From contig DYGE01000008.1 in the NCBI GenBank assembly GCA_020724845.1, forward strand, positions 1-41,158: 41,158 nucleotides of DNA, read 5' to 3'. Below, one piece after another: positions 4,692 to 10,904 of the stretch (position 1 is the stretch's first letter; every line of letters begins with the position of its first letter). The notes under the pieces are model-generated. The model had not been told where the DNA came from and did no database searches. It saw only the letters and a list, made by a program, of their open reading frames with translations. Position numbers and translations under genes: made by a program. The stretch comes from Candidatus Paceibacter sp. (lineage in GTDB: Bacteria > Patescibacteriota > Minisyncoccia > UBA6257 > 02-FULL-45-10c).

Positions 4692-4717
4692 AAAATCCCC
4701 TTCACAGAGGGGATTTT
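4692..4717 (-). terminator. Terminator downstream of ruvB (near-symmetrical)
   Basis: AAAATCCCCT-TCACAG-AGGGGATTTT. Confidence 0.8.
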
Positions 4718-5735
4718 ATACTAAACCGCCATCGTCCGGAGATTTCCGGCCTAGGTGCTTATAAGCCGCCGGCGTTACCAGCCGACCAGCCGGGGTGCGG
4801 TTTAGCAGCCCAATACTCATTAAATACGGCTCGTAAACGTCTTCAATAATGCCCCTATCGTCGTTAAGGGCCGCTGCCAAGGTCTGGATTCCAACCGGGC
4901 CGCCATGGAACTTGTCTATAATAGTGGTTAAAAGCTGGCGGTCGGTCGGCTCAAGCCCTAATTCATCAATTTCTAACATCCCCAAAGTCGCGCCAGTCGC
5001 TTCTTCGTTGATCTCCCCGAGATTATTCACTTCAGAATAATCACGGGCCCTCCTTAATAAGCGATTAGCCACCCGCGGAGTAAAACGCGAAGCCCTAGCA
5101 ATCAGAGAAACTGCGCCATCGTCAATTTTAACGCCTAGTAAGCCGGCAGAGCGTCGAACTATTGACTCAATGTCTTTAGTGTTATAATAATCCAGCTTGA
5201 AAGACGCGCCGAAGCGGGAACGCAGCGGCCCTGAAAGCAAATTCGCCCTGGTAGTAGCGGCGACCAAAGTAAACGGCGGCAAATCCAAAGAAAGAGTCCG
5301 CGCGCCCGGGCCCTTACCGACAACTAAATGCAGTTTTCTGCTCTCCAACGCCGGATAAAGCACTTCTTCAATCTGGCGATTAAGGCGATGCGCTTCGTCA
5401 ATAAACAAAACTTCGCCTTTTTCCAAATTGCTTAAAATCGCAGCTAAATCTCCCATCTTTTCCAGCGTCGGACCGGAAGTGACCTTCAGGCTGGCATTCA
5501 TTTCCTTAGCGACCAGATGAGCCAAAGTAGTTTTGCCAAGGCCGGCCTGCCCATAAAACAAAAGATGGTCGCAGGGCTCATTCCTTTTCAAGGCCGCATC
5601 CAAAATTACCCGCAAATTGCGCTTTACCTTCTCCTGACCAACGTAATCAGCCCAGTTAGTAGGCCGAAGAGCCAGATCAACCGCGGAATCATCTTTAGTT
5701 TTATTTATAGCGCCTGACAATTTTATATCTTTCAT
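4716..5735 (-). CDS. ruvB: Holliday junction branch migration helicase RuvB
   Basis: LRPTNWADYVGQEKVKRNL, LLFYGQAGLGKTTLAHLVA, LFIDEAHRLNR, AATTRANLLSGPLRSRFG. ATG at 5735 is more plausible than the TTG start at 5747 used in the ORF track. Confidence 0.95.
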   Translation of the reverse strand: MKDIKLSGAINKTKDDSAVDLALRPTNWADYVGQEKVKRNLRVILDAALKRNEPCDHLLFYGQAGLGKTTLAHLVAKEMNASLKVTSGPTLEKMGDLAAILSNLEKGEVLFIDEAHRLNRQIEEVLYPALESRKLHLVVGKGPGARTLSLDLPPFTLVAATTRANLLSGPLRSRFGASFKLDYYNTKDIESIVRRSAGLLGVKIDDGAVSLIARASRFTPRVANRLLRRARDYSEVNNLGEINEEATGATLGMLEIDELGLEPTDRQLLTTIIDKFHGGPVGIQTLAAALNDDRGIIEDVYEPYLMSIGLLNRTPAGRLVTPAAYKHLGRKSPDDGGLV

Positions 5736-5740
5736 AGTAC

Positions 5741-5769
5741 TTGACAACTAATATGTTTTATGATATACT
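5741..5769 (+). promoter_or_regulatory. Sigma70-type promoter driving a candidate ncRNA
   Basis: TTGACA (5741-5746), 17-bp spacer, TATACT (5764-5769) on the + strand. Confidence 0.65.
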
Positions 5770-5775
5770 CCCTAT

Positions 5776-5975
5776 AATTCAATAGTTCTCTATATTTGTT
5801 ATAACTCTAATAGAAAGCTTTGTTCTGTGGGCGGGAATTGCTTTATTGATAGGATGACTTGGCTCAGGCGAGGTCACTCCCAATAACAATTCTATCCTTT
5901 TCTAAACTTGTTTAGAAAAGTTCCACTTTTCCCTTACGGGATTTGCCCACAGAACAAAGCTTTTTATTATTTTCA
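5776..5975 (+). ncRNA. Candidate structured ncRNA, family not recognised
   Basis: Perfect 19-bp closing helix 5814-5832/5945-5963. Internal helices: 5835-5848/5881-5892 with 5852-5858/5873-5880 inside it; 5897-5906/5911-5920; 5930-5933/5938-5941. A TTTTTATTATTTT tract follows. Lies downstream of the promoter at 5741-5769 in a 276-bp intergenic gap. Confidence 0.6.
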
Positions 5976-6023
5976 ATTCTTTTTCTGTTTCTTTGTTCTT
6001 CTGTTTTTATGTTTCTATGTTAA

Positions 6024-7691
6024 TTATGTTCTTACCGGGCCAGTTACTTTTTCGACCTCTTCCATTGTCGTAATTCCAGAGATAACTTTTAATAATCCAT
6101 CCTGCTGCATCGTTACCATTCCCTGCCCGACGGCAAAATCGTGGATCTCTATTTCTCCGGCGCTCTTATTCATCAGCATTTCCATTTCTTTGGTGACCTG
6201 AAGCAGTTCGTAGATGGCAATTCTTCCGCGATATCCGAGGTTGCCGCATTGCTCGCATCCTTTTGGCTTAAAAATTTTTATTTTTTCATAATTTTTCTTA
6301 TTAACCCGATCAGGAAGAGAATTTACGAATTTCTGATATTCTTTTTCTGATTTTTCCGCGTCCTTATCCGCCATTTTACAATTCTCACAAAGCCGCTTAA
6401 CCAAGCGCTGGGCGATAACCAAATTCAGAGAGGGGCCGATGCTGGTCGGCTTAACTCCTAAATCTATCAAGCGAGGAATGGCGCCGGCAGCTTGGTTCGC
6501 GTGGACGGTAGAAAAGACCAAATGGCCGGTTAAAGCCGCTTGGATGGCAATTTTTGACGTTTCTTTATCGCGTATTTCCCCGATTAAAATAACATCCGGA
6601 TCCTGCCGCATCAGCGACTTCAAACCGTTGGAAAAAGTGTAGTTCGCTTCCGGATTGACCTGGGTTTGCTCAATTCCTTCCAGGTGGTACTCAATAGGAT
6701 CTTCAATAGTAATGATTTTGATATTCGGCGAACGCTTATGTTTCAAAAAAGCATAAAGCGTCGTTGTTTTTCCAGAACCGGTAGGCCCGGTATTCAGCGC
6801 CATTCCATTAGGCCGTTTCAGCTCGCCTTCAATAATTTTTAAATCATCTTCACGAAGACCAAGGTCGCCCAAACTCAAATCTAAGGCGTCCGGATCCAAA
6901 ACCCTCATAACGATAACTTCGCCGAATTCCGAAGGGGCAACCGCCACCCTTAATTCAATTTCTTTCTTTCCAAGGCCGATAGTGAATCTCCCGTCTTGAG
7001 CCTCGTCCTTCACGTTCAGCTTCAGATTGGAAAGCAGTTTAATGCGAGAAGTCAGATAGCCGTAAATTGTAATTTTTAAATTAGTAATGACATCTTGCAA
7101 ATCCCCGTCTATTCTGTAGCGTATTTTGATCGCGTCTTTAGACGGTTCAAAATGAATATCCGAAGCCCGATTGCTTAGAGCCCCTGCTAAAATAATTTCT
7201 AAAATTTGGGCGGTCGGGAAATTTTTGAAATCAAAATTTTCTATTTCTAATTTAACCGCTTCGAGCTTGGTAAGTTTTTTTATTAAACTTTCAATTCTTT
7301 CCCGGTCAACGTCAATTCGCCCGGTTATCGGCGCGGTCTTTTTGGTAATGTACCTGTAAAATTCCCAAGCCCGATTAAGGCTGGCCAAAGAAACAATAAA
7401 AGTTTTCAGCTGAAAGCCCTTTTTTTCCAGCTCTTGCAATATATCCTTTGCTTTTGGCTCTTCTGTGTCAAAGGCGATAAAAACTACCCGATCTCCTTTT
7501 TTTTCAACCGTCGCGACCTTGGCTTCTTTCGCTTTTTCTTCAGGAATAAGCTCTAGGGCGTCGGTTTCAACCGGCTGGGCAGAAAAGTCCAAATAAAGCA
7601 TTCCCCTCTGCATCGCCCGCCGCTCCGCATCGCGCTCCTCCGCCGCTTTTCGGGACTTCTCCAATACGCGTTTTAGGTTGTCCTGAGCCAT
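6024..7691 (-). CDS. Type II secretion / type IV pilus assembly ATPase (GspE/PilB family)
   Basis: SNRASDIHFEPSKDAIKIRYRIDGDL, NTGPTGSGKTTTLYAFL, TIEDPIEYHLEGIEQTQVN, LMRQDPDVILIGEIRDKETS, CENCK / CEQCGNLGYRGR. Confidence 0.95.
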   Translation of the reverse strand: MAQDNLKRVLEKSRKAAEERDAERRAMQRGMLYLDFSAQPVETDALELIPEEKAKEAKVATVEKKGDRVVFIAFDTEEPKAKDILQELEKKGFQLKTFIVSLASLNRAWEFYRYITKKTAPITGRIDVDRERIESLIKKLTKLEAVKLEIENFDFKNFPTAQILEIILAGALSNRASDIHFEPSKDAIKIRYRIDGDLQDVITNLKITIYGYLTSRIKLLSNLKLNVKDEAQDGRFTIGLGKKEIELRVAVAPSEFGEVIVMRVLDPDALDLSLGDLGLREDDLKIIEGELKRPNGMALNTGPTGSGKTTTLYAFLKHKRSPNIKIITIEDPIEYHLEGIEQTQVNPEANYTFSNGLKSLMRQDPDVILIGEIRDKETSKIAIQAALTGHLVFSTVHANQAAGAIPRLIDLGVKPTSIGPSLNLVIAQRLVKRLCENCKMADKDAEKSEKEYQKFVNSLPDRVNKKNYEKIKIFKPKGCEQCGNLGYRGRIAIYELLQVTKEMEMLMNKSAGEIEIHDFAVGQGMVTMQQDGLLKVISGITTMEEVEKVTGPVRT

Positions 7692-9312: not shown

Positions 9313-10904
9313 AAAAAGTAGGCGCGCAGAATAGCATGAAAGCAGCATTCCTGGCCGCTTTACTAGCATTCGGAAGTTCCGGGTGCGCCCTGACTTACAG
9401 AGACGAATTTCTCAAACAAGCGCAAGCCAAAGGCTGGACGGAAGACGAACAGCTGGCGGCACTCGCTTATTCCGACCGGCTTTATTTCCTGCACAAGACA
9501 AAAGATGGTTTTGCCGTAAATTATAGCCGCTTGAGCAAAGAACAGGTCTTAAAGAAATTGGATGAAGCGCTGGTGGAACTTGACGCAATTCTAGATTACA
9601 AAAATGAGCAAAACGCCAGGTTTGTTGAGTATTTCGGATTAAGAGAATTTTTGGAACACGAAGAGGAGGTGGTGAAAGCCATTCGCGACCGAGTAAGGGT
9701 CGCTGAACTTCATGATCAATTTGAGAAATTAATCGGGGCTTCGCCTTTCAGCTATCGCGACTATTACAGCTACGGCCAGAGTATCGGCGGCCAAGAAGAA
9801 AGAAGGAAAGGGTATAATATCCAGCAAATATTCTTGAGCACTGATATCTCTAAATCTTTTTCTTTTACCGAAAGCCGGATTGAAGAAGCGAAGAGGCGAG
9901 GCGCGCTGAAAATAATTGAGCAAGCCAGATCGTCTTTGAAGCGGAGATTTGACCGCAAGGAACCAAATCCCGCCTATCTGGATGATCCAAACAACTTTAT
10001 TTGGAAATCAAAATCCACCGAAGTGGAGTTCGTCAGTTACAAGATTCTGTATTCAGAAGACCCCAAAGACAACAACAGCAATTACATAGAAGGATACCGA
10101 ATTGTTGACGGCCGGAGAGAATCAAAGCCAGCCATACGGATATTCTACATTTACGAAGGGCGCCGAGGAGTTTTCTTGTTGGACGCGGATAAAGAAGGAG
10201 AAACTGGTTTCGGCCTGCCCGATGAAGTGGGTCCGGTGCGGGAAGCGCTGCAGGTAACCGACTTGCTTAGGGATGATAATCTTATGAATGTCTTGTTTCT
10301 GGAGAAAAAGGAGCGGCGAAGAGTCGCGCCAAAGAGAAAACCGATATTCGTAGAGATCGCCAGGGTTGGAGAAAAGACAATAGACTTTTGGGAGGACGCG
10401 CCTGATCAGCGGGGGTGGTACGTGCCATTCCTATACAAGAATAATGCCGAAAACAATTACAACGTAAAACTTGTCTTCGCGAGCCAAGAAAACTCCGGAG
10501 AAAACCCGGCGTATAGATTCGGCGAACCGCCGAAGCAAATAAAGTACCTTAAGAAAGAGTGGACGGACGGAACCAGGTACAAGCCGTCAATGGGCAATGT
10601 CGTAGAATATTACGAGATGAAGCCGGATTACGCGAAAAGAAACGTTTCGCGAGCTGATGTACTGCATCAACTGGATACAAAAAATCTCTCCATAGTTTTC
10701 ACAGACGGAACCACTGAAACCGGGCTGGTACTGCCTGGAAAGAATAAGTTTATTGAAGATGAGCCGATAATGATTGACTACACGGAGGGCCAGAAACGCT
10801 GGAGAATCAAGAAAGAAAAAGGCAGCCCCAACTACAATAAGCGCAAGGAAATATCTCCCGCTAAGGAAGATACCGGAATATACAGAGAGATGGAGATGGA
10901 ATAA
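9309..10904 (+). CDS. Putative lipoprotein of unknown function
   Basis: Signal peptide and lipobox MKAAFLAALLAFGSSGC; ATGA overlap with the preceding gene suggests translational coupling. Confidence 0.7.
   Translation: MKKVGAQNSMKAAFLAALLAFGSSGCALTYRDEFLKQAQAKGWTEDEQLAALAYSDRLYFLHKTKDGFAVNYSRLSKEQVLKKLDEALVELDAILDYKNEQNARFVEYFGLREFLEHEEEVVKAIRDRVRVAELHDQFEKLIGASPFSYRDYYSYGQSIGGQEERRKGYNIQQIFLSTDISKSFSFTESRIEEAKRRGALKIIEQARSSLKRRFDRKEPNPAYLDDPNNFIWKSKSTEVEFVSYKILYSEDPKDNNSNYIEGYRIVDGRRESKPAIRIFYIYEGRRGVFLLDADKEGETGFGLPDEVGPVREALQVTDLLRDDNLMNVLFLEKKERRRVAPKRKPIFVEIARVGEKTIDFWEDAPDQRGWYVPFLYKNNAENNYNVKLVFASQENSGENPAYRFGEPPKQIKYLKKEWTDGTRYKPSMGNVVEYYEMKPDYAKRNVSRADVLHQLDTKNLSIVFTDGTTETGLVLPGKNKFIEDEPIMIDYTEGQKRWRIKKEKGSPNYNKRKEISPAKEDTGIYREMEME

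Follow-up and report, generated by a model that had tools for sequence, protein, structure and literature searches.

The raiA motif/ModT, OLE and ROOL are broad structured RNAs whose function was unknown at discovery. The RNA gene described here resembles them in that it encodes a predicted stand-alone structured RNA first defined via covariation, whereas it shows no sequence or Rfam relationship to them and differs in architecture and lineage. The raiA motif/ModT has also been treated in PMC11706538. Among the housekeeping RNAs, 6S RNA (RF00013) is similar to it in size (~120-200 nt), single copy, sigma70 promoter and a long helix closing the ends, SRP RNA (RF00169) in its housekeeping-like size and long rod, and RNase P RNA (RF00010) and tmRNA (RF00023) as universal bacterial stand-alone RNAs. 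The broad kind, a stand-alone structured RNA, is thus known, but the family is unrelated to any described one. The preliminary description, in which no RNase P, tmRNA or SRP signature had been recognised, left the family open, and our comparisons agreed with this. Rfam 15 gave no match to the element (5400-6300, E<=10), RF00010, RF00023 and RF00169 included, and searches of 30 diverse member loci at E<=5 returned nothing above noise. No description of the RNA was found in the open-licence literature on surveys of non-coding RNA in CPR bacteria.

The window, i.e. the whole stretch of 41,158 nucleotides from Candidatus Paceibacter sp. that was analysed, contains the element between ruvB and a pilB-type gene. 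Our analysis confirmed positions 5741-5975 of the + strand as a predicted stand-alone, single-copy gene that has a promoter of its own and a folded non-coding RNA as its product. The following features were assigned:

4716-5747, - strand: ruvB, divergent 5' neighbour (Pfam RuvB_N/AAA_lid_4/RuvB_C)
5741-5769, + strand: sigma70-type promoter TTGACA-17-TATACT, 11/12, with a TG extended -10
5776-5807, + strand: probable 5' leader, placed from the promoter position; its length differs among relatives
5808-5833, + strand: 5' strand of the closing helix P1, its inner end CUGUGGGC strongly conserved
5834-5893, + strand: arm 1, composed of P2, GGA/UCC and the P3 hairpin
5834-5840/5887-5893 and 5843-5848/5881-5886, + strand: P2 within arm 1
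5852-5854/5878-5880, + strand: GGA/UCC within arm 1
within arm 1: P3 hairpin, tip GC-UCAG-GC in the window copy, UNCG-type in most relatives
5897-5920, + strand: arm 2 (P4), hairpin CTTTTCTAAA/TTTAGAAAAG
5930-5941, + strand: arm 3 (P5), hairpin TCCC/GGGA, which varies among relatives and is missing from many of them
5944-5969, + strand: 3' strand of P1, GCCCACAG conserved, running out into a T-rich tract
5964-5980, + strand: T-rich 3' tract, a terminator-like end read from the sequence
6024-7691, - strand: pilB-type ATPase (T2SSE family), convergent 3' neighbour (Pfam T2SSE)

Elsewhere in the window, at 660-2984, polA is present as two adjacent ORFs, one for the 5'-3' exonuclease part and one for the polymerase part, either as a split gene or through a frameshift.

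The perfect 19-bp helix originally reported at 5814-5832/5945-5963 is present and forms part of a closing helix of 26 consecutive pairs (5808-5833/5944-5969), the additional length being provided by wobble pairs. This helix encloses three arms. All of them had been placed correctly, but the third has to be regarded as the weakest and is missing in many relatives. The + strand reached a minimum free energy of -77.7 kcal/mol compared to -37.6 +/- 4.1 kcal/mol in 200 dinucleotide shuffles (z = -9.8), none of which folded equally well. As proposed before, the interval harbors no plausible protein gene. ORFs starting inside the element comprise only 24-36 aa, apart from one of 97 aa that continues antisense of pilB, and the covarying fold argues against coding. 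Protein coding was dropped as an explanation on account of the short overlapping frames, the indels and the covarying helices.

The fold was strongly supported by the comparison of homologous sequences. In 54 aligned members of the order, compensatory changes were detected at 50 of 55 pairs, including all 22 pairs of P1 and all nine of P4. Standard pairs occupied 94.7% of the paired cells of these sequences versus a mean of 71.6% in shuffles; structures slid along the alignment paired at most 54% of the cells, and none of 500 shuffles reached the real value. While the later alignments were fitted to models and are therefore biased towards the structure, the alignment produced first, by MAFFT only, from 16 family members (A2) already disclosed covariation at 27 of 59 pairs. 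The regions upstream of ruvB in related genomes, named beforehand as the place to look for homologues, were thus conserved and showed massive covariation. Since P1 covaries throughout, its changes go beyond the needs of a palindromic DNA repeat or a terminator. We conclude from these substitution patterns that the fold of the RNA is real.

Paired columns contained 300 G.U pairs versus 55 A.C mismatches, an asymmetry which indicates that selection at the RNA level acts on the + strand. The promoter TTGACA-17-TATACT was found exactly as initially described, with TG preceding the -10 region, and transcription probably starts approximately 7 nt past the latter. Promoters scoring at least 9/12 were located upstream of 82/85 class loci, compared to 12/85 in an antisense-downstream control and 24% of shuffles. 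At a score of at least 10/12, 70 class loci remained versus three in the control (n = 85), and the scan revealed an extended -10 region in 67 of the 82 loci with a promoter. The distance from the -10 region to the closing helix ranged from -5 to 84 nt in relatives and lay within ~30 nt at most loci. Terminator-like hairpins followed by U-runs were identified past the + end of 26/85 class loci against 2/85 on the opposite strand; in the set from outside the class, 18 such sites were situated at the + end and four on the other strand. The proposed terminator-like end of the window copy is accordingly correct as to its T-rich tract, but the separate downstream hairpin terminator seen in some members is missing there. 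Wobble asymmetry, predicted promoters and terminator-like sites all point to the + strand.

We also asked how far the RNA could be a highly diverged 6S RNA, which would resemble an open promoter and thereby trap RNA polymerase. In favour of this reading, it is similar to 6S RNA in size, occurs in single copy, is closed from end to end by a helix and has a strong promoter; in addition, neither the window's genome nor the closed relative G182 yielded a canonical 6S RNA. However, no member matched RF00013, even permissively, nor did anything in the window's own genome. The predicted RNA is branched and carries neither a 6S signature nor the symmetric central bubble, in which both strands of 6S RNA are open: in the window's family P1 is stacked directly on P2 without a 5' bubble strand between them, and in other members of the RNA family only one side is open. 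Moreover, true 6S RNAs with the signature CCCACCUG...CAGGG exist outside the class. In G845 and G860 the matches lie below the Rfam gathering score, yet they are full-length, contain this signature and are encoded at loci apart from the RNA. As both RNAs reside at different loci in these two genomes, it is very unlikely that the new family is 6S, and the doubt already cast on this identity was justified. In total, 6S RNA was found in 32/369 genomes of the phylum; canonical or diverged copies occur in G845, G860, G628 and G792 (L208, L209, L212, L213), while none was detected in the window's class. A functional replacement of 6S by the RNA is conceivable in this class, where 6S was undetected.

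SRP RNA differs from the new RNA by its helix-8 core, which the latter does not possess. RF00169 matched none of the 17 family genomes and none of 146 phylum genomes, and the M domain of Ffh (PF02978) was detected in only 1/17 family genomes versus 14/14 controls, indicating that the family has no SRP that the RNA could serve. Identity with SRP RNA was dropped, as Ffh and SRP RNA were undetectable in the family. The SRP system seems to be absent from the window's family and phylum, which is partly known for CPR bacteria; the loss of SRP subunits in many of them has already been noted (PMC8080830). RNase P RNA and tmRNA are separate genes, the former being present in the window's genome and both in G182. 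G182 belongs to the window's order and contains the RNA; at Rfam gathering thresholds its closed genome yielded only rRNA, tRNA, tmRNA, RNase P RNA and an L10 leader. Its 23S rRNA gene (L140, 7461-11371) spans 3.9 kb compared to 2.9 kb of the model and thus probably contains an intron or insertion.

The genomic position of the element is very stable. Out of 69 order loci, 67 have pilB and 66 have ruvB adjoining the RNA, nearly always on the opposite strand, and further class members kept the same ruvB-pilB location. This synteny, the convergent arrangement with pilB and the fact that the closed genome G153 misses both ruvB and the RNA are what a cis-acting element would lead one to expect, be it a bidirectional terminator, a 3' UTR structure or an antisense regulator of pilB/ruvB. 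We nevertheless consider a cis-acting element distinctly improbable, because the RNA has its own promoter, the strand selected according to the wobble asymmetry is antisense to pilB, and the covariation is more elaborate than a terminator needs. In addition, the RNA is inverted in L074, and outside the class it adjoins vanW in either orientation. There, the neighbour is a VanW-family gene (vanW), convergent in 17/29 loci and located upstream on the same strand in several others, with clpP nearby in 11 loci. A function as terminator only was discarded on the basis of promoter, strand and relocation. A stable place, rare inversion and a different site in another class fit the vertical inheritance of an independent gene, and evolution as read from these sequences establishes the gene, its strand, its fold, its single copy and its vertical inheritance. 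With regard to G153 (L214-L245), which belongs to a family without matches to the RNA, no RuvB match was obtained either. The joint absence is a single case and could be due to one deletion; it offers a lead but no evidence of a link to RuvB.

A DNA search recovered the RNA in 16/17 genomes of the window's family, G004 giving no match, and the window's own genome contains one copy. The wider distribution was determined with covariance models of the RNA (R1-R3), whose E-values are rough by design. R1 matched 162/245 order genomes and 118/173 genera, and the broader model R2 173/387 class genomes (152/340 among those of high quality). Outside the class, R2 gave weak matches in six genomes, including G639, whose match of 55 nt was not counted as a member. 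R3, built from five outside-class members, found the RNA in 32/382 genomes of the phylum sample. The 83/245 order genomes lacking a match include G004 and G153, the latter being the single closed genome in which absence was checked. This patchy distribution means that the RNA is non-essential in some lineages or that some copies have diverged past detection; the absence from a third of the order may accordingly reflect loss or divergence.

Owing to the almost palindromic fold, many second matches fell on the other strand of a locus already found; true second copies were rare (G093; G898, tandem). Contig 6 of G093 harbors a possible diverged second copy (9842-9979, 60 bits), and in L135 of G898 the outside-class RNA occurs as tandem copies at ~1286-1409 and 1501-1624. 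The long terminal inverted repeat at 5808-5832/5945-5969 is reminiscent of a mobile MITE-like element, an origin of practically negligible probability given one copy in nearly all genomes, fixed synteny, compensatory changes in P1 and a promoter. A repeat of this kind at many loci, which had been mentioned as a possible objection, was looked for and excluded by the single copy; copy number and synteny together refuted the MITE.

Outside the class, the relative of the RNA is a simpler rod of ~125 nt, in which 41/48 pairs covary (30 members). Common to both forms are the closing helix, P2, GGA/UCC and P3, a hairpin whose tip is usually of the UNCG type, while P4 and P5 are features of the class form; of these, P5 and sometimes P4 has been lost, and L085 is devoid of both. 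R3 recovered class members at identical positions, for example L085 with 43.9 bits and L128 with 29.6 bits. The proposed homology of the two forms is based on their shared architecture and on scores of 25-47 bits with the covariance models.

Within the 30 outside-class sequences, the 5' inner strand CACGACAAGCAUGG and the UUCUUG opposite to it are near-invariant, while the surrounding helices change freely. Such a pattern might reveal a regulatory RNA whose single-stranded core, CACGACAAGCAUGG in the outside-class form, pairs with a conserved target RNA. This mode of action is unlikely. Lacking in the class form, the motif cannot provide the shared mechanism, the target remains putative, and strict conservation is equally well explained by a protein site or by tertiary structure. 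A possible pairing of the CACGACAAGCAUGG motif with 16S rRNA would include a conserved mismatch and would be lacking in the class form; it is not claimed.

Together, the data suggest that the locus probably encodes a stand-alone structured RNA of ~160-190 nt that acts in trans and is the first member of a new family. Judged from sequence comparison, the gene would be transcribed, and its product, a stable RNP or a regulatory RNA, would act in trans and have a partner at its conserved core. The housekeeping RNA polymerase would start a short distance ahead of the closing helix and stop after it, and the RNA would fold into a long closed helix with its two ends paired. The inner end of P1, P2, GGA/UCC and P3 with its UNCG-type tip would most likely form the surface that a protein or RNP partner recognises, and P4 and P5 would be lineage-specific arms. 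We infer a role as a protein-bound housekeeping or regulatory RNP. More tentatively, and with somewhat less than even confidence, the RNA may be an ancient, phylum-specific housekeeping RNA of the Patescibacteria (CPR) dating back at least to the common ancestor of two classes, which would form an RNP and serve a core function in cells that have lost SRP as well as, in this class, any detectable 6S.

Few bacterial RNAs are equally widespread in a phylum and still unnamed. Genomes of the host group comprise 0.4-1.3 Mb, and according to the inventory of G182 the RNA is one of few structured RNAs in a minimal symbiont-type cell. With one model for each form, within and outside the class, it could be annotated phylum-wide at once, and the discovery of its partner could uncover a core process in this poorly cultivated group.
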